A DNA stretch of 64,000 nt. Origin: Bolinopsis microptera. Its lineage: Eukaryota; Ctenophora; Tentaculata; Lobata; Bolinopsidae. Made by a program: the position numbers and the translations under genes. This document shows positions 13,001-58,800 of the stretch, in pieces (within the stretch, counting starts at the first letter, position 1; each line of letters begins with the position of its first letter). Where the stretch lies: assembly GCF_026151205.1 (NCBI RefSeq), contig NC_087073.1, positions 19,868,837 through 19,932,836 of the forward strand, in the 5' to 3' direction. The notes under the pieces are model-generated. The model was not told where the DNA came from. It ran no database searches and saw nothing but the letters and a program-made list of their open reading frames with translations.

Positions 13001-16000
13001 GGATTTTTCGTCACATTCGTGCTTTATTAAATCAATGTTAAAGTCACCCGCTAGAACAATCTGCTTTCTCCCGTGAGATCTTAATTTTGATAGGACCTCG
13101 TCGAAACTTTCGATAAACTTAGAAGAATTGCTGGACGGCGATCTGTAAACACTGACTAACAAAACTGTGTTATTTAGCTTTTTACATGATCGGATCTTAG
13201 TGATCAGGAATTCGCCATACAAACTCGGGTCTTGATCCATAGTTAAGTTTTCGATATCATCTGAGAAGCTACATACCCGTTTGTTGACATAAGTAAGTAG
13301 GCCTCCTCCTTTGCAAGATTTTCTGATTGGGGCTTGGTAGGTTGGAGGATGAAAACCATCAATAAGTAAATCATTCAGACCGTTAGCGAGTTTAGTTATG
13401 TTGCAATTGGTTTCATTAAGACGTCATACTTCGCATAACTGGTCGATAATTTGATCTAAATTTTTGTGAATAGAGCGAATATTCAAGGAAAGGATTCCAA
13501 GCTCGTCATCACCAGGCCACGGGATCTGTTTAGGAGATTGGTATGTGCACCTTATTAGTTTATCCGATAGTTCATCCCAAAGTTCACTGTTTTTCTCGGA
13601 ACTCCTAATCTGTTCCCCTATATTATTTATCAGTTTGTTACGGTCGTATGGATTGAAAATTTTGGACTGTAAATTAACAGTAGTAACAGTAGTTCGTAAG
13701 CATAATATCCAAAGCCGGGGATCATTTTAGCGCAGCATTGAAGACAACCGATTACCGAGGCTACCATTAATACACTTTCTATGGCACAAATTGTTGCACC
13801 AGGGACATTCGTTGAGATTTGGGAATTCGTACTAACCATTTATCACATTTGACCGTCTTACTAGATGTTAGCACCATGTTTAGTGTCAACTTTTAAAGTA
13901 TTAATAGATGATAGCGTGACGTGAGCTAGATGATTTTGATATGGAATAAAATAATAAGATCACAAAATAACGTGATGTAGTGAGTTCCTGTATGATATAT
14001 TATATATTAAATAGTTATTACGTGACCTATTAACGTGACTTTAACAATACTAATAGCGAATAAACCATAGATGAAATGTAATTATGGTACACTTCAAATA
14101 TATAGACACGTCATTATCTTAAAGTTCTTCAACAACGGTCGAATTATATTAATATTATTCTAGAAGCTCGACACAGCTGTGCTGTGAGACATTACTCATA
14201 ATGCCTTAACTCATACTTTCATAGTGGCTGACTCATTTGCTTCAGTTTGGTTTAGAATTTCGAGGCTTTCCTCTTATTCCCACAGAATAACACTTAACTG
14301 AATTGATTTCTCTAGTTAGGAGCTGAAGTTAGGGACCCGGACAGAGTGTTCACAAAACCTCGCACGTTTTCTCACTCTTCCCTGGCCCCATTTTCTTGGC
14401 TCACTCATCTGGAGTAGATACTTTCAGTAACTGTTTTTCCGTGTACTTTATTATATATTAATATACAGTAGCAAACCTATATCTACATTTAAACAAGAGT
14501 ATCATTTACAGCCAAAAAATGGTAGTTATCCGAAGTAGTAAAAATAGCTGTAAGGCCTGTACAAAGCGCCTAGTCTCACACAAGATAAGCATCACTTGTA
14601 GTATCTGTTATATGACATATCACCCAAAATGTGCTCACCTAACACCTAGCGACATAACTGAACTTACTGGAGAATGGTCTTGCTACAGCTGCATTTCAGA
14701 AATTCTTCCAGTGGGCGCCGTCATGCCTCTATTACCATCACGGCCTATACAAATCCCAGTCTCCAATAAACGAGAAAAATGTCACACTTGCACAAAAATT
14801 GGGAATGTAAGACAAATGACCAAATGTTGTTACTGTGACAAACTATCCCACACAAGATGTTCTGCTGGCTCAACAGGCTGCAAAGAATGCTTGAGAAAAA
14901 TTTTCCCAGCATATGATGTCTCCATTAGACAGCTTCACATGATAAATTTCAGTAACACTATTAGGTTTAACCCCTTTAATCGCGACCACCTATCAAATCA
15001 AATAGGTGATCGTGATGATACTGATGCTGATTTGAATCCATGGGAAACAACGTCTAGTCTTCTAAATAACTGCAAATACTATACCGCGAAAGCAATAAAA
15101 AATACGAAGGAGTATGAATTAAAACTTTTCTCGCTAAACGTTAGGTCACTTAATGGGAACATTGAAGAATTTCGGGAGAATATAGATCAATACACAAAAT
15201 ACGACGTTCTCTGCTTCAATGAAACAAATTGTAACACGGAATGTTTGCCTTTTCAGGGAGAGGAGCTCGAACTAGACGGTTTCTATCCACCGTAAGTTCA
15301 GACTCCCGCCAGAGCGTCAAATCGTGGTGGAGGATTAGTTATATATGTTAACAAAAAACTATGTGAATTATCTGACATAAACGTTAAGAGCGCTCTATGT
15401 TGCCACGATAATCCTAAGATAGGAGAATTCTTGGTTGCAGAACTTACCTTGAAAGGGCACAAAAACGCGTTAATCTGTAATATATATCGCTCTCCAAGTG
15501 GGGATTTGAATGGTTTCCTTGAACAATTAAAAATTTTCCTCCGTAACTTAGCAAGACATCGAAACAAAAATATCATACTGGCCGGTGATACTAACATAGA
15601 CCTACTAGATTACGGGAGAATAGACTCTGTCACTAAGTATGTGGACACTCTAGCAGAGCATGGGTTCGCTCCTGTGATATCTAGACCAACTAGAGTCACA
15701 GATCACAGTGCGACAATCATTGACCATATTTTCGTCAATAATTGCCACGCTGTTACAAAATCGGGAGTAATTTCTGAGTCAATCTCTGACCACTTGGCAA
15801 CTTTTGTCACAATCATGGTTGATCAGAATAGGCTCAGTTGTAAACTTCAAGAAGATACAACAGAAATGTCTTCTCGAGTAATAAACGATGACAGTATCCA
15901 AAAGTTCGAGAACGACATTTCTGCGGTAGACTGGAACTTGGTTAATAACTATGATTCTGTAGATGAAAAATTTGAGGCTTTCGATAAAAAATATAGTGAA

Positions 16001-19000
16001 CTATACGACCGAAATTTCCCAATTAAGGCAAAAAAGAGTAAACTAGGCCGCCGTAAAAACACAAAGCCGTGGATCCAAGAATGGTTACGGTGCGCATGTG
16101 ATCGCAAAAATAAATTTTATGAAGATTTTGTCACAAACCCGACCACTGAAAATGATATTAGGTACAAGAAAATGAAGAAATTTGTGAATAAACACGTGGA
16201 TAAGGCCAAAAACAAATATTACAACGCGTACTTTACAAAATATTCTAGCGACAGCAGAAAACAATGGCAAATGGTTAATAACTTGTTAAACAGAAAGAAA
16301 AAAGGCAAAATTAAGATAAACAAAATTAACTATAATGGGAGCGAGATAACAGATTCTCAGCAAATTGCGAATAGCTTCAATGACTATTTCTGCAATATAG
16401 CTGAGACTCTTAAGAGAGAAAATGGTCTCGTATGCTCTGAGGGCAGGACTATCGTAATAGAAACTCAAGATAGCAAATGCCAGCGGAGCATGAATCTAGA
16501 AGATTCGTCCGCATCAGAAATAATTGAAATAGTTAAGGGTTTGAAGATTAAGTCGACTTCTGATATGAGTATACTTCCCCTGAAAAAAGTGAGCAATATA
16601 CTTGCACCAGTGCTTAGCTGCCTAGTCTCTGCGTCTCTACATCAGGGGAAGTTTCCGCATAAATTGAAAATCGCGAAAGTAGTTCCACTTCACAAAGGTG
16701 GGTCACGTGCTGAAGTTTCAAACTATCGACCTATCTCACTACTCTCATGTTTCTCAAAAATCTTTGAAAAAATTATGCAAGCGCGACTATTACATCACTT
16801 AAAGACAGAGAAAATCCTATTTGACTCTCAATACGGATTTCGGGCTGGGCACAGCTGCGAACATGCTTTACTAGAAGCCCAAAACCATATTCACAGGGCA
16901 CTAGAAAAAAAGCAGGTCACAGCACTGCTTCTATTGGACTACAGCAAGGCCTTTGACATGGTTGACAGCAGTATTCTTCTGAGAAAACTTGAGCACTATG
17001 GAGTTCGGGGGTTGGCTTTATCTTGGTTTCACTCATATCTAACCGATAGAGAGCAATACGTGAGCGTCAACAACTGCAAGTCCTCTCATCTCAAACTTAA
17101 CTACGGAGTACCACAGGGCTCCATTCTCGGACCAATTCTGTTCATAATCTACATCAACGACCTTCCTCAGATTAGTAATTTAGCTAAACATATTTATTTC
17201 GCCGACGACGCAAACCTAATAATAAGTACAGATACATTTGAACAACTTAATGCATTGGTGAATGAGATTCTGACTTTGATAATTGATTGGGTTACTAATA
17301 ACGGGCTTAAATTAAATGCTAGCAAAACTAAATATATGATCTTTACAAATAAGAAAACTAAGGATATAGAAATCTACATGGGAGGTGAGCGACTAAAGCA
17401 AAGTTATCACGAAAAGTTTCTTGGCGTGATCATTGATACTAAGCTAAATTGAGCCCACCACATTAGACATTTAGCCACTAAAGTATCTAGAAATGCGGGT
17501 ATTCTCTACAAACTCAAAGGCTCAGTACCTAACAAAGCACTCAAGTTGATATACAACAGCTTTGTTCAGTCTCACTTGTACTACTGCTGCACAGTTTGGG
17601 GAACAAGATCGCTAAACTCCGTTAAAAGAGTCTTCTCGGCCCAGAAAAAGGGCATTCGCGCTGCAGATAACCAATACCACCGCTATTTTTATGACAAAGA
17701 TCTGAATAGCACACCTTCACACACAAAGGAAATTTTCAATAAACTAGAAGTATTAGCTTTACCGAACGTGATAGCTAAATGTATATTATGCTTAATGCAC
17801 AAAGTTTATTCTAACACTGCACCACCAAATATTATAAGAATGTTCACTGTTTCAAACTTAAACGCACCTAGAAGAGAACCTGAGTTCTTTGCAGTACCAT
17901 TTAACCGTTTATGTAATTCAGACAAGAGCATTTCTTACATTGGGCCTAAGTTATATAACCAAACAGTCAACATTATTAACAAGGACATAAAATATGTCAC
18001 CACTTGCCTACAAGACAATTTCCTAAATTCATTCAAGTCTACAGTCAACAAGCATGTGCTTACTGCACAAGCACATAAACCGGATGACAAGGACTGGGAC
18101 AACTCAAATTTCGTACTTTTAGAAATTTAAATAATTTGATACAACATACGTTGATCATAATAACGAGCAACAAAACTTTAACCTCATAACAAAATATGAC
18201 TATCTTCGAGCATTTTTTACAATGCTATCGACACCGCGCAATTTCACTGTCATTTACAACTTTTAAAAGATAAAAATATCACCGCGCATTCTTCAGACCC
18301 TGTGTCGCTGTTCTAAATTTATGTCAAGAGATAAGAGTTATTTAAAATTCTTAATAGTACTATTTAAATTTGCTAATAGCATAATCATATTTTATACATT
18401 ATTAATACTTTATACATTGTGTGCATATATTTATATTTGATTGTAATTAAAGATTTTAAGGCGTTAGTGCCGAGTAATGCCTTCGGGTAGTGCTCCTCAA
18501 TCAATTTATCCCTTATCATGTTACACCGTTTGTTAATCGTATCAAAAACCCTGAACCTATTCTCAAAAGAGTGGGAATTTATCCGCCTCGCTGTGTCCTA
18601 CGCCTTAATTAACTGCACTGAAATCCTGATGGCGTTCATTACCCTTATGTTCGCTGGACACATCAGCCCGGCTCATCTCACCGGAGTGGGACTCGCTAAC
18701 ACTCTCTTTAACTTGATAGTTGCCCCGATATCTGCTGGATTCGCATCCGTCCTCGTACTTACGGTCCTCAGGTGCATGGTTCTAAGGGTGAGCTTGGGAC
18801 GGTGTTTTTAAAATGTCTATTCCAGGGTTGGATCTTGCTCCTCATTGTTCTGGGTCCGTACTTAAATGTTGTGTTCATCATAGATCGTCTGCCGGACCCT
18901 ACGCTGCAACTTGATGATACGTTAGTTGACGAGTTGTCCATTGGTGGCGAGGACAGCTACCGAGATATTGCAGTGAAATATCTCAGGATAACATTCCTTA

Positions 19001-33400: not shown

Positions 33401-36400
33401 GTTCTGACATAAAGTCGAGACACTCATCACCGGGTCCCATTATCATTTATATTTAAAATAACTGCGGGCAGTTGACAGAACAATGTTCTGTATATAATGT
33501 CGTATAAATGCGACATGTTACATCAATTATGCGGCTGATTACTCCTTTGCCAAAAGCTCTGAGAATAGAAAAACATCTTGTCATGTTATCTAACAATATT
33601 GTACGGGGCTTTATTGTAAATTCAAAGCAACTATTAGCTGGTTTAATGACGAATTATCCTAACTTCAAACAAGGTGTACCGCAGCTAAAACCATGCTTCA
33701 TGCTTTCATGATAGTTGCGGGACTTATGAACAGCATAATTGACAACGATTATTATAGTAACCAAGTGACTACAAACACTTATAACTTTAACTAGACGTGC
33801 AAACATATAATTAGATTTAACAATCTATGTTTACGTCAGCCGTAAGTAAGGAACAAAAATACAAATTAATTGTCCTACCAATTCGCACAATTATTACTAT
33901 ATAACCATAAAAATGCAACGACGCTCAGATGTTACCAATGTGGCAAAGATAGAGTTAGGAATTTTCCTAGAAACCCCAAATAATTAATATTTCCAAAAAA
34001 TTTAAATATTAAATAAACTAACTTGAGTCCGTGTGTCTCTGTTGAAGTAAGTCACGTGACGTCATATCATTGTACAAAACTATCGAGTCTGTTTCGTATC
34101 CCAGTCGCCTGGCAAACTCATTTATAACCACCGACTTTCCACATCCCTGCGATGAAGAGATGAGATTACCCAATCAATGGATTTTTTCTGCGTAAATTGT
34201 CGACTGAGAAAATGTTATCAAATACAGGACGAGGGCTCTGGTCTCTGCATTCAACTCAAATCCGGATGTACAGATCAAGAATACTTACAGGAGAAACGAC
34301 AAGAATACTTACAGGAGGACCGACAAGAATACTTACAGGAGGACCGACAAGGCAGATGTCAGAGACGGAGTGGGAGAGTATCATGTCAGAAAGAAGGGTC
34401 TCTTGTGACGGAGTAGGGATATAAGGGGACAGTCTCGGGGGACCGCTAGTATTTCTACCTGTCCGAATTGGGTTTAGTATTTAAAGTGAGATAGTGTTAT
34501 ATACTCCAATAGACTGCCTATATATAATTCGAAACTGTCGATTCTTGTTTATAATAAGTCAGCAGAATTCTCATCCAACGTAAACCAAAACAAAAGTTCA
34601 TCTGCATCGTATACACCCTTAAGCTGATAAAGTAACTTACATCGGCAAAAAACCTTTTAAAACTACTAACTAAAGAACATATTAATATAAATGTACCTGC
34701 AGGGACGGTGAACTGGTGTCTGCCACACTTTACAGTAGCAATACCATCAGTGATATCCCGGACCTGGCAGACGGGATCACCTAGCACGGTCCGGGGTGAC
34801 GTGATCCCCAGATCTGATAACATCACCTCAAACTGGGACCGGGTGTCTGGTTGTAGCAGCAGCTTGTACGGGTATACTGTGTTCACTCTGGGAACAGGTC
34901 AAGTGAATAAGCACAGAATTAGGCAAAGTTTTGTCGTGTTAAATTAACAGATAAAGTCATCGGTAAAAAACCGTTTTGAAAACTTTAGAATTTTAGATTG
35001 ATCTTAGAATAACTGTTAAAAAGTATGTAGGAATACAATTAACCTATTTAACACTTATTAAAAACTCTTACAGTTTGGCGGAGTCTACAGTAGGAACTTT
35101 AGACACGATCTTCTGGAGGTTATCAATTGCAGAACTATTGAGATAGGGCCAGGTTTTAGCTTCTGATTCTTTGAAAAATGAGGCAAAGGATAATAAACTG
35201 TGTACACTCTTTTCGTCAGAACCAGCTGCATTCTGGGAAAGAGAGGAGGGTTTAAAAAGTTTATAAACGATTTCTGCTAATATGAAATTTATCGAGTGAA
35301 TTCTAAATGAACATAAAGTCCTATTATATAGCTAAGATCTTTTAAATGAAAGTGGTAATTAACTACCAGAAGGAGATGCTGCTTGTGTTCGTTGTACAGC
35401 AAGTCCTCAACAATCCTAGCCTGGAATCTAGATCTGAGGGGAGGGTCTAGAGGGTACCCTCTGTAGGGTGGGACTGGTACACCTGAGAATAGCTGGTTGT
35501 AATGGAAGAAGGTGGACACATTCCATACCTCCGGTTACCAGGTATGAAGTGGGGGAAATCACAACAAAAGTCACGATTGAGAAGAAAGATATTTTGTTTG
35601 ATGACCATACAGCTCAGTGTAATAATTCTTACCCAAAGCAACGACCCAGAAGTCAGGATGAACTCTGACAAGGTCAGAAGAAGGGTTAAGAAGTGTGTCG
35701 TATCTCTGATGTGCCACCAGGAACCTGCCATCCTCCAGGTGCATCTCTCTGAATTATAGTTGGTACATCAATTAGCAATAAAGGCTATGTAATCGAGGTA
35801 CTGGTAGCTAAATATCTAGAGAAAACGTTTATGAAAGGGAAATTTTGAAAATGTCCTACTGGTAACCGGTAGGACATTTTCAGATTTCAGCTTTCCCTGA
35901 CCCAAATTTCACTGTTTTGACTCATTTTTCTTCAATAACCAATTACAGAGTTCACTGTGGACGGTACAAGACCACAATGGGGTTCTGAAAGTTACAAAAG
36001 AAAGCTTTGATAAAGGGAAAATCGTCAAAAAAGAAGAAAATATTTTCGAAGATTATTGAAGAAGAGCTTTTATGCCGTCCCCTTGACCAAAATTTCGTGG
36101 TTTTTACTGAAATCTTTACCAGTGACCAATCAGTGAGGTCGGTGAGAGTGAGACAAGTCGCCATCAAGGTACTGGAAGCAGTATTATATATAGATATATC
36201 CAGAGTAAACTTTGATGCAATGAAATTTTTGAATATGACCTACCGTACCGGTAGAACATATTCAAATTTCAGCCTTCCACGTCCCACGACCCAAATTTCA
36301 CTGTTTTGACAGACTTTTTCTTGAATGACCATCTTACATGGTCACTGAGGATGGCAAGACACGATTGAGGTTCAAAGTTCTATTCCCAATGAAAGCTTTG

Positions 36401-49800: not shown

Positions 49801-52800
49801 CAAGGACGAGGACCAGCTCAACCCTGATGATTACTGTATCGCTTACATGTTCACCCACAGGGACTTTGAGGATGGTGTTCTCGGTGAGTGTAGTGTGTAC
49901 TGTGTGTGTACTGACACTGTGTGTGCTGTGTGTACTGTGTGTACTGTGTATACTGTGTATACTGTGTGTGTACTGTGTGTGTACTGTGTGTGTACTGTGT
50001 GTGTACTGTGTGTGTAGTGTGTGTGTGTGTGTGTACTGTGTGTACTGTGTGTGTACTGTGCAGTGTGTACTGTGTGTACTGTGTGTACTGTGTGTAATGT
50101 GTGTGTACTGTGTGTTCTGTGTTTGTACTGTGTGTACTGTGTGTACTGTGTGTGTACTGTGTACTGTGTACTGTGTGTACTGTGTGTACTGTGTGTACTG
50201 TGTGTACTGCGTGTGTACTGCGTGTACTGTGTGTACTGTGTGTACTGTGTGTACTGTGTGTACTGCGTGTACTGTGTGTACTGTGTGTACTGTGTGTACT
50301 GTGTGTACTGTGTGTACTGTGTGTGTACTGTGTGTACTGAAACTGTGTGTGTACTAATGTTGTGGTTTTGACTTTTGAGTTTTTGATCTCTTAGTTAGTA
50401 GGGTTATTAGTGTGTTTGTTTATTTGTAGTTTGACTAATGACTATTCAGAAATCAGATTGTAGTGAAACATTATTACTGTCAACTTTGTTTATTAGGTAG
50501 GATGATAATATTGATATCATTTAATTTTTATTAGTTCCCTATAATAAGTCTATTTTCAGGGCTAGCATGGGTAGCTTCATCTGGTAAAGATAGTGGTGGA
50601 CTCTGTACTGACTGCAAAAACTACGACTCGGTATGTTTAGTTAAATTAGGGTAAAAATAATCTCCTAACTCCTAGATACGCTGCTCTTGCTTCTTGTAAT
50701 CTCCTAACTCCTAGATACGCTGCTCTTGATCTTGCTTCTTGTAATCTCCTAACTCCTAGTTACGCTGCTCTTGCTTCTTGTAATCTCCTAACTCCTAGTT
50801 ACGCTGCTCTTACTTCTTGTAATCTCCTAACTCCTAGTTACGCTGCTCTTGCTTCTTGTAATCTCCTAACTCCTAGATACGCTGCTCTTGCTTCTTGTAA
50901 TCTCCTAGCTCCTAGATACGCTGCTCTTGCTTCTTGTAATCTCCTAACTCCTAGATACGCTGCTCTTGCTTCTTGTAATCTCCTAACTCCTAGTTACGCT
51001 GCTCTTGCTTCTTGTAATCTCCTAACTCCTAGTTACGCTGCTCTTGCTTCTTGTAATCTCCTAACTCCTGGATACGCTGCTCTTGCTTCTTGTAATCTCC
51101 TAACTCCTAGATACGCTGCTCTTGCTTCTTATAATCTCCTAACTCCTAGATACGCTGCTCTTGCTTCTTGTAATCTCCTAACTCCTAGATACGCTGCTCT
51201 TGCTTCTTGTAATCTCCTAACCTCTAGATACGCTGCTCTTGCTTCTTGTAATCTCCTAACTCCTAGATACGCTGCTCTTGCTTCTTGTAATCTCCTAACT
51301 CCTAGTTACGCTGCTCTTGCTTCTTGTAATCTCCTAACTCCTAGTTACGCTGCTCTTGCTTCTTGTAATCTCCTAACTCCTGGATACGCTGCTCTTGCTT
51401 CTTGTAATCTCCTAACTCCTAGATACGCTGCTCTTGCTTCTTATAATCTCCTAACTCCTAGATACGCTGCTCTTGCTTCTTGTAATCTCCTAACTCCTAG
51501 ATACGCTGCTCTTGCTTCTTGTAATCTCCTAACCTCTAGATACGCTGCTCTTGCTTCTTGTAATCTCCTAACTCCTAGATACGCTGCTCTTGCTTCTTGT
51601 AATCTCCTAACTCCTAGATACGCTGCTCTTGCTTCTTGTAATCTCCTAACTCCTAGATACGCTGCTCTTGCTTCTTGTAATCTCCTAACTCCTAGATACG
51701 CTGCTCTTGCTTCTTGTAATCTCCTAACTCCTAGATACGCTGCTCTTACTTCTTGTAATCTCCTAACTCCTAGATACGCTGCTCTTGCTTCTTGTAATCT
51801 CCTAACTCATAGATACGCTGCTTTTGCTTCTTGTAATCTCCTAACTCCTAGATACGCTGCTCTTGCTTCTTGTAATCTCCTAACTCCTAGATACGCTGCT
51901 CTTGCTTCTTGTAATCTCCTAACTCCTAGATACGCTGCTCTTGCTTCTTGTAATCTCCTAACTCCTAGATACGCTGCTCTTGCTTCTTGTAATCTCCTAA
52001 CTCCTAGATACGCTGCTCTTGCTTCTTGTAATCTCCTAACTCCTAGATACGCTGCTCTTACTTCTTGTAATCTCCTAACTCCTAGATACGCTGCTCTTGC
52101 TTCTTGTAATCTCCTAACTCATAGATACGCTGCTTTTGCTTCTTGTAATCTCCTAACTCCTAGATACGCTGCTCTTGCTTCTTGTAATCTCCTAACTCCT
52201 AGATACACTGCTCTTGCTTCTTGTAATCTCCTAACTCCTAGATACACTGCTCTTGCTTCTTGTAATCTCCTAACTCCTAGATACGCTGCTCTTGCTCTTT
52301 GTAATCTCCTAACTCCTTGATACGCTGCTCTTGCTTCTTATCCTTAATTAAATGTAGCTGTAACCACTGCTCACTTTCTCTCAGTTATTTATCAAGCTGT
52401 CAAGATAGTTCTACACAATGTCATGCATTTGAACGGTACTATCCGTGCTTGTTTACACTGCACACTCAACAACAATGAAACTTTACACACTCTGATACAT
52501 CCAGATTATTAGTTTAAAGTTATGAATTACGTTGGTGTGAGTTGCGTGTTGTATTTTAATCGGTTACATGTCGCACTTTGATTGTCTTAATAGCTCACGC
52601 CAGGTCATCATCATTCTAGACTGCGTTATAAAATGGCATCTCGGGACAAGTATATTCAACTTTATAGATATTACGTGGGGCTCGTGTATAGGATTCTACA
52701 ATACTACTGATCTAAAAATAGCCAAGCATCCCTATCATAAGTATGCCTTCGCGTTTTGACAGAATAGTATAAACAAAAGAGTATTTAAATGTACATACCA

Positions 52801-55800
52801 ATTTTACAGTGTTCCTGTCGAGGAACTCTGTCTTTAATGGAAAACTGGTGATTTAATACACTTAATAATGGGAATAATAAATATAATTAGATGATGCCTG
52901 GTAGAAATGTGTTGACCAGGTATTTGTTGTCAGCTCCCCTAGCTGCTCATGTCATTATTAAAGTATTGTAGGCAAAACGATATTATCCTGATCGCCAGGT
53001 CCAGAAGTACAGACTATTCAAACGGTAAAATGAAATGTCCTGATTATTATAGAGGTACGGAGATATTTAAATACAATCATACCTCACATGGTGATCTCTA
53101 GTCCCCTACTACTATACAATATACATTTTAATACAAAGTTAGGATATAATGCAGAATTACATTCCAACAACTCCACTACTACTACTACTTTAAATACAGG
53201 ACACCTAGTTAATACCACTAGTTTCTAACATTTACTCTGAGCCACCCTGTATATTCTGATCTCAATCCTGGACCTATTTGGCAAGTCAGCTCCCAAAACC
53301 AAAACCAAAACCAAAACTAAAACTAAAGTTCCTAACCTCCACTGTTTCAGATGAAGTCGCGGTGTTTGAACACTGGTATTGTAACCACAAGGAATGTTAA
53401 GGAGGTTCCTAACCTCCACTGTTTCAGATGAAGTCGCGGTGTTTGAACACTGGTATTGTAACCACAAGGAATGTTAAGGAGGTTCCTAACCTCCACTGTT
53501 TCAGATGAAGTCGCGGTGTTTGAACACTGGTATTGTAACCACAAGGAATGTTAAGGAGGTTCCAGCACTGCAGAGTTCCTAACCTCCACTGTTTCAGATG
53601 AAGTCGCGGTGTTTGAACACTGGTATTGTAACCACAAGGAATGTTAAGGAGGTTCCAGCACTGCAGAGTTATCTGACTTTTGGACACGAGCTCGGACATA
53701 ACCTCGGCTCTCCTGTATGTTAAATGAATAATTAATTATCTAATATAACTGCTAATTAACTAATTAGACTATTGGATGATTGAGTGCTGAAGACTAAACA
53801 TTTGTTATTAAGCATGTTATATTCCCTCTGCGACCGTAACTTGATGCTGCATCCTCGAGACACAACTCACAAGTTGTATTTTTCTAATCAAATAAATTTA
53901 AAACACAATATGTGAGCTCCCCGTTGTTTGTGCGATTAGTGAGTAGTGAGTTAAAATAAGGGGTACAGTATTGAGCAGGAGGATCGTGTTACCAGCGCTA
54001 ATAGAGTGTGTGTGAGAGGGGGTGTCACGTGTGTGTGAGAGGGTGTCACGTGTGTGTAGACTGTAGAGTGTGTGTGTGAGGGGGTGTCACGTGTGTGAGA
54101 CTGTAGAGTGTGTGAGGGGGTGTCACGTGTGTGAGAGGGTGTCACGTGTGTGTGAGAAGGTAACTAGTTTTTTACAGGGCACAGTGTCCTGTGTGTCCCA
54201 TGTTATTATGTATTGTTTAAAACACTCACACCGGTTGTGGGCTGTGATGGGGTGTGAGTCATGCTGTGTACTTTACTGGATTTAAACGGGAAATTTAGGT
54301 TTATAGGATTGTCTGTGAAAGGTGGAAGCTGGAATTTGTTTCCTTAATTTCAAGGTATTTGTAACACTGTGTCTCAACCTGACGTCTCGTGTTTCACCAC
54401 CTCTCAAACTGATGTTGTGGTGTTTTGTACACGACCCACCGTAAGTGACATGTTACGTAATAAGTAACTCCAGGAACAGCACATGAAGCAGCAAGTAACG
54501 CTGCTGTCCGTTGTGTAAAGTAGTGCTGCACTATCATGCTCCATCTCATTCTCTCCCTACGTCACGCGACTCAACATTATATCAGATGATAATCTTACTA
54601 TTAGTAGGACTGTGACTTGTGTCAGTAGGTTGCATTACTCGAATATTCTACATTCTCTGACTGATTCGTCAGTAAGCCGGACGTGGCTGAGATTAGTTGT
54701 AACAATGATAAGTTGTACAGTGCTGATAAGTTATTGCCGGCATGATTAGAGAGAAAATTGCTAGTCGGAGATAACGCTTCAGTTCTTATAGTTGAGCTAC
54801 CTGAACAACAAACCGAACCTCTTTAAGCTGAGTAACTCTACTTACCTCCCCCCTCTGTTTAACTCCCCCCCCCCCCCTTCTGTTTACCTCCCCCTTCTGT
54901 TTAACTCCCCCCCCCCCTCTGTTTAACTCCCCCCTCCCCCTCTGTTTAACTCCCCCGGCCCCCCTCTGTTTAACTCCCCCTCTGTTTAACCCCCCTCTGT
55001 TTAACCCCCCCCCTCTGTTTAACTCCCCCCCTTCTGTTTACCCCCCCCCCCCCCGCTCTGCTTACCTCCCCCCTCTGTTTAACCCCCTCCTCTGTTTACC
55101 TCCCCCTCTGTTTAACTCCCCCCTCTGTTTAACTCCCCCTCTGTTTACCTCCCTCCCTCTGTTTAACTCCCCCTCTGTTTAACTCCCCCTCCTCTGTTTA
55201 ACTCCCCCTCTACTTACCTCCCCCCTCTGTTTACCTCCCCCCTTCTGTTTACCTCCCCCTTCTGTTTAACTCCCCCCCCCTCTGTTTAACTCCCCCCTCC
55301 CCCTCTGTTTAACTCCCCCGGCCCCCCTCTGTTTAACTCCCCCTCTGTTTAACCCCCCTCTGTTTAACCCCCCCCCCCTCTGTTTAACTCCCCCCCCCCT
55401 TCTGTTTACCCCCCCCCCCCCGCTCTGCTTACCTCCCCCCTCTGTTTAACCCCCTCCTCTGTTTACCTCCCCCTCTGTTTAACTCCCCCCTCTGTTTAAT
55501 TCCCCCTCTGTTTACCTCCCCCTCTGTTTAACTCCCCCTCCTCTGTTTAACTCCCCCTCTGTTTAACTCCCCCTCCTCTGTTTAACTCTCCCTCTGTTTA
55601 ACTCCCCCTCCTCTGTTTAACTCCCCCTCTGTTTAACTCCCCCTTCTATTTAACTCCCCCTCTGTTTTACTCCCCCGGCCCCCCTCTGTTTAACTCCCCC
55701 CTCCCCCTCTGTTTAACTCCCCCGGCCCCCCTCTGTTTAACTCCCCCTCTGTTTAACCCCCCTCTGTTTAACCCCCCCCCTCTGTTTAACTCCCCCCCTT

Positions 55801-58800
55801 CTGTTTACCCCCCCCCCCGCTCTGCTTACCTCCCCCCTCTGTTTAACTCCCCCTCTGTTTAACTCCCCCTTCTATTTAACTCCCCCTCTGTTTTACTCCC
55901 CCGGCCCCCCTCTGTTTAACTCCCCCCTCCCCCTCTGTTTAACTCCCCCGGCCCCCCTCTGTTTAACTCCCCCTCTGTTTAACTCCCCCCTCTGTTTAAC
56001 TCCCCCTTCTATTTAACTCCCCCTCTGTTTTACTCCCCCGGCCCCCCTCTGTTTAACTCCCCCCTCCCCCTCTGTTTAACTCCCCCGGCCCCCCTCTGTT
56101 TAACTCCCCCCTCTGTTTAACTCTCCCTCTGTTTAACTCCCCCTTCTAATTAACTCCCCCTCTGTTTTACTCCACCAGCCCCCCTCTGTTTAACTCCCCC
56201 CTCCCCCTCTGTTTAACTCCCCCGGCCCCCCTCTGTTTAACTCCCCCTCTGTTTAACCCCCCTCTGTTTAACCCCCCCCCCCCCTCTGTTTAACTCCCCC
56301 CCCTTCTGTTTACCCCCCCCCGCTCTGCTTACCTCCCCCCTCTGTTTAACCCCCTCCTCTGTTTACCTCCCCCTCTGTTTAACTCCCCCCTCTGTTTAAC
56401 TCCCCCTCTGTTTTACTCCCCCAGCCCCCCTCTGTTTAACTCCCCCCTCCCCCTCTGTTTAACTCCCCCGGCCCCCCTCTGTTTAACTCCCCCTCTGTTT
56501 AACCCCCCTCTGTTTAACCCCCCCCCCTCTGTTTAACTCCCCCCCCTTCTGTTTACCCCCCCCCCCCCCCGCTCTGCTTACCTCCCCCCTCTGTTTAACC
56601 CCCTCCTCTGTTTACCTCCCCCTCTGTTTAACTCCCCCCTCTGTTTAACTCCCCCGGCCCCCCTCTGTTTAACTCCCCCTCTGTTTAACTCCCCCTCTGT
56701 TTAACCCCCCCTCTGTTTAACTCCCCCCCTTCTGTTTACCCCCCCCCCTCTGTTTAACTCCCCCTCCTCTGTTTAACTCCCCCTCCTCTGTTTAACTCCC
56801 CCTCTGTTTAACTCCCCCCTCTGTTTAACTCCCCCTCTGTTTAACTCCCCCCTCTGTTTAACTCCCCCTCTGTTTAACTCCCCCTCCTCTGTTTAACTCC
56901 CCCTCTGTTTAACTCCCCCTTCTATTTAACTCCCCCTCTGTTTTACTCCCCCGGCCCCCCTCTGTTTAACTCCCCCTCTGTTTACCCCCCCCTACTTACC
57001 TCCCCCCTTTATTTCAGCACGACCCCACATCCTGTGCACCTGGTAGTGGGTACAGAGGAGGCAACTACCTGATGTACCCTCACGCTAACACGGGCAACGA
57101 ACCCAACAACGTGAAACTGTCTCCCTGTAGTACTGAGATAATGGGACCTATACTTTCTATTAGAGCCAGCTGTTTTGAGGGTGAGACAGCTGTTTTACTT
57201 ATTGTTATCTTTGTAGTATAATAAATGTTCTTATTCCGTGATATTATATAACTTAATGTTGAATGTTCGTCGATAATAAGTTATAATATAATGTTGTTTT
57301 TCTTCGTCATCGTTTCTCTCATTATGATGACATTGTTATTAAAGATCTAGTGTAATATAACCGTTACATGTAATATGAAGGCGTGCAAGTGCATTATTAT
57401 ATGGGCAATTCCACGATAACAGTAACCAGTAACAAAATAATAAAGTTTGGAGGAGGTTTGGGAGAGATAGAAAATCTTTAAGATATTTGACCATATTTTC
57501 AGGGGCAAAAAACCGTTTGTTGATATCTAGCCTAGTTTAAAAACTGTAGCGCGTCAAAGTTGGCTTAAATTTAGTGTATCTTTAGTGTGAATATCCAGTT
57601 ATTTTCCGAAAGATTTTAGGGAGCTTTATTAATCGTAGAATTCAATATTTTATCCTGTATATCAACCTAGTGGGCTTCAGATAGAAGGCCAGCCTAATTT
57701 TAAGGGCCAAATTTCTTTACTTTTTGAGTGTCTTATGATCAAATTTTTCCTCTTCGCGTATGAATAACGCTACCAAATAGTGAAAAATGTTTTACTGTGG
57801 CTACACTATAAGTCTGTTTGATTCGTAACTCTCTCTCTAACAGCAACTTTAGTCATCTATAAAGGTCAGAAAATTTCATTCGTTTTTATTTGTCACACTG
57901 GAAGTGCAAAAAGTAGGGGTAGTGTGATTCACAGGTAGCGTAATTCACAGCTTGGTAGTGTAATTTACACAGTGGAAAATTAATAAAACAAGTGGTTTAA
58001 ATGCTTTGTTGTGAAATAAATTGTACTTTCAATGCTTCCAGGGCAATTCCAGGGACCTATTTTCAACAACTGCCTGAAAGTGTTGGTAATTTAATCGAAA
58101 TTAGGGTTCCGCCAGGGCAAAATGTGCCACTTTTATACCTTAAATCGCAAAAATAATGATTTTTAAATGGATTAGGACATCAAAATTGATTTGAAAGTGT
58201 TTTATAGTCATTGTTAGGTCTAAGAACACTTATTTGAGTAATTTAAAGGCTTATTTTCAGAAAATATCAGCAATTTGGGGCTAAAATTACCTTATTTTCT
58301 TGTCACGTAACTAAATTTTGCTCAAAAGAGCAGTGTTTTTGCCCCAAAAAATTCTAATTTTTATCAAAAACCATGTTTAGAGGTATCAAATTAAAGCTCT
58401 TGATGACCTCTTCACATTAAAAACACAAAGAAGTAGTTTAGAATTGATATAAGTGATAAAATGGTCTAAAAATGGATTCAAAAAGTTATAAATTTCGCCC
58501 AATTTCTGTCTAATCACGAACCTTTGAGAGCTCATAAAAAAATCATGCCACAATATTACACTGTACATTTTTCTAGGATTACTCTAAATGTCCTATACTT
58601 ACAGATAGATCAACTTATAGATGCTTACCAAAGTTAATTTGCAACTTATTTTTGTAGTTTGTCCTAAAAAATGGCAAAAAATTGCCAAAAAATGCAATTT
58701 TTGACAAAAAATGAGGTAAAATTAATATTTGAGGTCAAATATCCATTTAATCACTCTAAAAACCTTTTTAAACGTTATTTTGGGGCAAGATACCCCTAGA

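Follow-up and report, generated by a model that had tools for sequence, protein, structure and literature searches.

A fourfold tandem copy of a splice acceptor ahead of the zinc-site exon of an ADAM10-like gene in Bolinopsis microptera

Introduction

When a splice acceptor stands in a gene four times over and only the last copy opens the frame to the catalytic site, which copy is used? This question is raised by a gene of the ctenophore Bolinopsis microptera, located in a 64,000-nucleotide stretch of contig NC_087073.1 (positions 19,868,837 to 19,932,836 of the forward strand) that was analysed as a whole and is here called the window. The initial annotation of this stretch had proposed that transcripts spliced to the upstream acceptors would undergo nonsense-mediated decay, making ADAM10 activity dependent on acceptor choice.

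Tandem copies across exon edges have a precedent in lancelets, where so-called mirages are described for Adh3, the globins BflGb6 and BflGb9, troponin C, and PGBD5, and where RT-PCR of the tested genes agreed with normal splicing, one of these genes carrying its mirage at an acceptor (available extracts of PMC3087553 and PMC3902484). Competition between duplicated sites is the subject of the proximity rule of Reed and Maniatis, cited in PMC9225289, and of its exon-definition form, set out in that study; the systems behind them are minigenes and human transcript counts. As far as the extracts of that study report, upstream acceptors are preferred overall, and strongly so under intron definition, while exon definition moves the choice towards the site that is nearest when measured across the exon. 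For acceptors, the human data reveal that exon definition weakens the upstream preference without cleanly reversing it.

Results

Four identical copies of an intron end and exon start

Within the window, a 77-base unit was read directly in four copies, every one identical to the others (4/4), at start-to-start distances of 77, 77, and 93 bases (Table 1), in agreement with the quadruplicated acceptor of the initial annotation. Each unit comprises 23 intron bases (GTTCCTAACCTCCACTGTTTCAG, i.e. a CTAAC branch-like element, pyrimidines, and CAG) and the first 54 bases of the exon, and all four acceptors are identical over positions –23 to +54. Copies 3 and 4 continue with 16 further exon bases, yielding a 93-base unit. 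Searched at the DNA level, with simple repeats and very common words skipped, the whole assembly returned the array stretch as one match. Local copies (at least 85% alike and at most 180 bases away) accompanied 133 of 1500 random 22-base points of the window (GC content 38.6%), as opposed to none of 1500 in the window shuffled by 500-base blocks; repeats of this sort are thus not due to chance, although the genome is rich in them. Elsewhere in the window, long open frames at 14462–18127 have, by eye only, the appearance of a LINE-type element.

Short sequences are shared at the junctions of the array: AGTT stands at the first copy's left edge (AAAGTTCC) and again at the right edge of the 93-base unit (AGAGTTAT), and GTTCC is found at either end of the 77-base unit. 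This suggests that the array was born of slippage or of microhomology-mediated duplication between short direct repeats. The piece so duplicated would have been the 3′ end of the ADAM10-like intron plus the 54 bases that open the following exon, and slippage or microhomology repair may have produced, in this presumed order, a 93-base duplication, a 77-base one, and a later expansion. The identity of the copies further suggests a recent origin.

Table 1. Window coordinates of the array, of neighbouring parts of its gene, and of a second exon-edge array. A slash marks the splice site.
Feature	Position	Strand	Remarks
VWA8-like P-loop exon donor (LVGPP/GCGKS)	34276..34351	-	Three donors, 24 bases apart
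Preceding exon	50560..50630	+	Phase-0 donor TCG/GTATGT; read directly
Minisatellite, 39-base, ~43 copies	50658..52339		Intronic, starts just past the 50630 donor; Tandem Repeats Finder
Copy 1	53328..53404	+	23 intron + 54 exon bases; acceptor immediately 5′ of 53351; stop after 26 codons
Copy 2	53405..53481	+	Acceptor immediately 5′ of 53428; stop after 26 codons
Copy 3, 93 bases	53482..53574	+	77-base unit 53482-53558; acceptor immediately 5′ of 53505; stop after 25 codons
Copy 4, 93 bases	53575..53667	+	77-base unit 53575-53651; acceptor immediately 5′ of 53598; sole route to the zinc site
Zinc-site exon, 117 bases	53598..53714	+	Donor CCT/GTATGT
Next exon, HDPTSCAPG...	57018..57179	+	Completes HExxHxxGxxHD; exon end approximate

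Only the last acceptor keeps the frame open

Acceptors 1 to 4 define exons of 364, 287, 210, and 117 bases, respectively. Entered in phase 0 from 50630, the first three lead to early stops (Table 1) that sit 283, 206, and 132 bases ahead of the exon end, and 53598 is the only acceptor with an open frame through the zinc-site exon into HDPTSCAPG at 57018; the earlier statement that the HELGHN frame is reached from the last acceptor alone thus held. The zinc motif of ADAM10, HExxHxxGxxHD, is present across the zinc-site exon and the exon at 57018. The introns flanking the zinc-site exon measure 2967 bases (before) and 3303 bases (after, from coordinates). Three adjacent introns of the gene harbor minisatellites near splice sites, the sites themselves being uncopied (49916–50339, 50658–52339, and 54873–56993).

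Acceptor scores are equal in all four copies and fall at the 23rd percentile of the acceptors sampled from five protein families (see below). The donor of the zinc-site exon scores 2.8, under every sampled donor (minimum 5.07, median 9.0) in a comparison sample preselected for strong donors. Inside the copies, GAG/GTTCCT is a candidate donor with a score of 4.13. Introns of 23 bases between adjacent copies, running from GAG/GTTCCT to the next CAG, were considered and rejected, as 23 bases are too short for an animal intron.

The same candidate donor might, at 53405 or 53482, allow the exonic 54 bases from one of the upstream copies to be spliced in as an in-frame micro-exon of 18 codons. The frame would be preserved with 18 residues repeated, the introns left behind would be of feasible length (193 bases, 53405–53597, or 116 bases, 53482–53597), the candidate outscores the exon's own donor, and an intron-gain model has been drawn for lancelet globins (extracts of PMC3087553). 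However, GAG/GTTCCT lacks a G in the +5 position, every sampled donor scores higher, and the insertion would land directly ahead of the zinc site, so that we regard inclusion of a micro-exon as extremely improbable.

A second ADAM10-like gene on the same contig

Among solved structures, those closest to the translated exons are human ADAM10 (6bdz and 6be6, E = 1.9e-25), compared to 2.9e-14 for ADAM17, which upholds the original ADAM10 assignment. The zinc-site exons by themselves gave 2.5e-18 for ADAM10 and 2.3e-13 for ADAM17. Downstream of them, the frames are, judged by eye, open and ADAM10-looking, and the candidate disintegrin-like region after the protease is an open frame whose structure match reaches only 3.6 bits.

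The contig that carries the window gene (C2 in our numbering) contains a second ADAM10-like gene at C2:12340250–12341250 (minus strand; ADAM10 8.5e-25 vs. ADAM17 1.8e-20). Over 109 positions of the zinc-site exons (matching part C2:12340474–12340942), its identity with the window gene is 45%, and no array and no tandem repeat was present in the 1 kb read. This rules out the window gene as the sole ADAM10 of the genome, and we therefore refer to it as an ADAM10-like gene, not as the ADAM10. In the second gene (L132), the protein spanning the window gene's array-bearing intron lies uninterrupted in one exon. Classification of the matches elsewhere to the zinc-site exons covered this gene and the top-scoring match, at C2:1943198, which is ADAM17-like; the other matches lie at C2:6.46 Mb, at C2:13.5 Mb, and on C7.

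With a second ADAM10-like gene present, the animal could live even if the window gene were not intact. The window gene might be a damaged gene or allele in which the first acceptor dominates and little functional protein is made, tolerated through a second allele or through the repeat-free, 45% identical relative. In line with this, the intron proximity rule would pick the first acceptor (extracts of PMC9225289), and the assembly stems from one individual, with haplotigs purged (extracts of PMC10232365). The downstream frames, which by eye are open, speak against damage, as do the lancelet precedents, which according to the extracts of PMC3087553 and PMC3902484 are spliced normally, and we hold loss of function to be improbable.

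Arrays recur at exon edges of unrelated genes

Arrays at exon edges were found in several unrelated genes, namely VWA8, a kinase, two myosin exons, three dynein exons, and another ADAM. The VWA8-like donor array reported earlier for the window proved real (Table 1): use of the first donor forms the P-loop, whereas splicing from the second would place eight extra residues in frame before GCGKS. This exon matches AAA_5 (E = 7.8e-23), the name VWA8 coming from the initial annotation. A kinase exon (VVTLWYRSPE; Pkinase match) at C1:216896–217010 (L009, 297–411), which was encountered at a locus retrieved because of a different array, has its acceptor in three copies at 39-base spacing. In a myosin-head gene (L049, 1–277; C2:3177150 onwards, minus strand), donor and last exon bases form seven identical copies at 40-base spacing, and at least seven in all, since the array runs beyond the fetched stretch. 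Donors are present twice in a further myosin exon (L048) and in one dynein exon (L074), and five times each in two other dynein exons (L083 and L079). Finally, another ADAM (L129; C1:14124300–14126000, minus strand) contains eight slightly diverged copies of its disintegrin-exon donor, mostly at 44-base spacing; it was found via a search with AGGTAAGT and, consequently, left out of the donor rate.

Against this background, we considered that a sizeable share of the window gene's transcripts might be spliced upstream and decay, setting the level of the ADAM10-like protein, with copy number tuning the dosage. The three upstream acceptors do retain the branch-like element, pyrimidines, AG, and 54 exon bases and are followed by early stops, the zinc-exon donor is weak, and upstream acceptors are preferred overall, strongly under intron definition (extracts of PMC9225289). 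On the other hand, like arrays in myosin, dynein, kinase, and VWA8 genes argue against gene-specific control, the identity of the copies gives no sign of long retention, and mirages left splicing undisturbed in the lancelet genes tested (extracts of PMC3087553 and PMC3902484). Regulation by upstream acceptors thus seems unlikely to us.

Tandem copying is frequent in introns and spares exon interiors

The frequency of such arrays was assessed in 202 exons with matches to myosin-head (72 of 73 matches), kinase (5 of 136, short ones chosen), dynein DHC_N2 (70 of 72), ABC_membrane (16 of 36), and UCH (39 of 45) domains; since the sample includes paralogues, its exons are only partly independent of each other. 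From generic splice-site tables, 124 donors and 96 acceptors were obtained, with matches lacking a site above threshold being dropped, and a site was counted as copied if a copy lay within 180 bases. Five of the 124 donors were cleanly copied (95% interval 1.3 to 9.2%), namely those of L048, L049, L074, L079, and L083; a first search window had given 4/106, and L048 was caught by a second window and added afterwards. None of the 96 acceptors was cleanly copied, an intronic array abutting the acceptor of L122 not being counted as clean, and even with L122 included the difference between donors and acceptors (5/124 vs. 1/96) is not significant (p = 0.24).

ABC transporter exons with near-equal scores lie in opposite orientation at C13:13534985–13536769 (plus strand) and C13:16223416–16225037 (minus strand), which suggests either a recent inverted gene duplication or a leftover haplotype in the assembly.

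Within introns, tandem copies are a frequent finding, whereas the interiors of exons have almost none: local copies were found at 132 of 2173 intronic vs. 2 of 880 exonic points (p = 1e-17 per point, points within an array being non-independent), and both exonic points fall in the donor arrays of L049 and L074, already counted above. Donor-side introns exceeded acceptor-side introns per point (71/867 vs. 22/671, p = 5e-5, again with non-independent points within arrays); counted per site, intron flanks with a copy (20/124 donor-side vs. 10/96 acceptor-side) did not differ significantly (p = 0.24). Copying reaches donors somewhat less than the neighbouring intron, and acceptors less.

Splice sites as hotspots of copying were rejected: 5/124 donors were copied as compared to 14/124 introns at +20 to +40 (p = 0.054), and 0/96 acceptors as compared to 8/86 introns at –120 to –180 (p = 0.002, i.e. 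depleted). The earlier suggestion that this genome is given to tandem duplication over splice sites is right, but the sites are not favoured targets, introns being copied at least as often.

The scarcity of copies in exons also bears on whether the array exists in the animal. A single copy could have been multiplied by assembler or polisher, given that the assembly was made with wtdbg from PacBio reads and polished with Illumina data (extracts of PMC10232365) and that a draft lancelet genome contained an aberrant assembly of one mirage (extracts of PMC3087553). Yet such an error would not spare exons, the breakpoints share short sequences, two unit lengths are nested, and a typical long read is much longer than the array, all of which makes an artefact very unlikely.

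Genome-wide pattern searches gave 8152 + 8537 matches for three GTAAGT hexamers spaced by N12–42 (1746 + 1399 for the reversed pattern), 2900 + 2978 for TTTCAG arrays (656 + 710 reversed), and 572 + 775 for AGGTAAGT (11 + 0 reversed); outside repeats, the window contains GTAAGT 32, TGAATG 44, TTTCAG 66, and GACTTT 48 times. Hexamer arrays were discarded as a genome-wide measure because each matching position counts separately and the matches listed come mainly from large arrays, because AG precedes only ~8% of GTAAGT matches, which is roughly chance, and because one 32-base family recurs at two places. A 32-base array (AGGTAAGTACCTGAGTAAAGAGCGCTATCATG) lies at two distant places, C1:36576–37703 and C1:761375–762150, perhaps inside a mobile element.

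Taking sampled exons and individual arrays together, we lean slightly towards the view that a few percent of conserved-gene donors, plus some acceptors, are multiplied two- to eightfold and that, by extrapolation, many genes carry competing-site constructs.

The last acceptor as the probable site of splicing

For the ADAM10-like gene, we consider it probable that the array is a recent tandem duplication, the ctenophore counterpart of a mirage, and infer that 53598 is used in most transcripts while the upstream three acceptors leave with the intron. The zinc-site exon would be recognised as a unit between introns of ~3 kb, so that the acceptor nearest its donor, 53598, would be chosen and the three upstream copies spliced away as intron; leakage to the upstream acceptors would yield stop-containing, decay-prone mRNA. 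Use of 53598 is expected because introns of ~3 kb on either side favour exon definition and because lancelet genes of the same structure are spliced normally; in addition, the catalytic motif is restored from 53598 only. That local copies are scarce in exons and common in introns fits survival only where splicing removes the copies.

Several observations count the other way. With the four acceptors scoring equally, nothing local favours the last one; the weak donor of the zinc-site exon weakens the exon-definition argument; and the duplicated donor of L074 is located in a 143-base intron, outside the reach of that argument. For acceptors, exon definition lessens the upstream preference without cleanly reversing it (extracts of PMC9225289), and the second ADAM10-like gene would allow this one to be damaged. 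A dosage effect through leakage to the upstream acceptors is possible. The proposal that acceptor choice and decay set ADAM10 activity is nevertheless unsupported: a second ADAM10-like gene exists, lancelet mirages are spliced normally (in the extracts cited above), and the ~3 kb introns favour exon definition.

Discussion

The architecture described here is already known from lancelets. As in the mirages, short tandem units (10 to 160 bases in lancelets) lie across an exon edge, at donors and acceptors alike, with the splice signals copied, and the mirage of BflGb6, as the ADAM10-like array, copies an intron 3′ end together with the exon start (extracts of PMC3087553 and PMC3902484). In contrast to BflGb6, whose units are 81 to 100% alike according to the same extracts, the four ADAM10-like copies are identical. 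Lancelets belong to a different phylum, and in them splicing and haplotype differences have been studied. By its structure, the ctenophore array is of the mirage type; its origin is likely independent of the lancelet arrays.

Intron gain by tandem genomic duplication, in which a duplicated exonic AG/GT reportedly creates a new intron, also duplicates splice signals, whereas the array copies an existing intron end. In human segmental duplications, internal tandem repeats at exon–intron boundaries alter splicing, with 27 intron modifications listed; they are located in recently duplicated genes and are able to give rise to alternative introns (extracts of PMC2812944). Like the set-up of Reed and Maniatis, the array offers equal competing sites in the same exon context, as a natural construct; unlike the human cases, the only ADAM10-like relative seen for its gene is 45% identical. 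Among the full-text matches listed, in a search that left most subscription papers outside, there was no report of mirage-type arrays in ctenophores. What looks new is the frequency, a few percent of donors, and in this apparent frequency lies the specialist interest of the arrays.

For the ADAM10-like gene itself, the practical point is modest, in that gene predictors may pick the wrong acceptor. More broadly, each array constitutes a natural duplicated-splice-site experiment, in which equal sites in equal exon context differ by position alone. If arrays are as frequent as sampled, existing RNA data could reveal, across many genes, whether an animal from one of the earliest-branching lineages selects its splice sites by exon definition, and at what rate new introns arise from tandem copying. 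RNA-seq and Iso-Seq reads of B. microptera went into its annotation (extracts of PMC10232365). If our reading is true, array survival would mean that splicing reliably takes the outermost authentic site (the first donor or the last acceptor), and the arrays would keep supplying the genome with new introns and alternative junctions.
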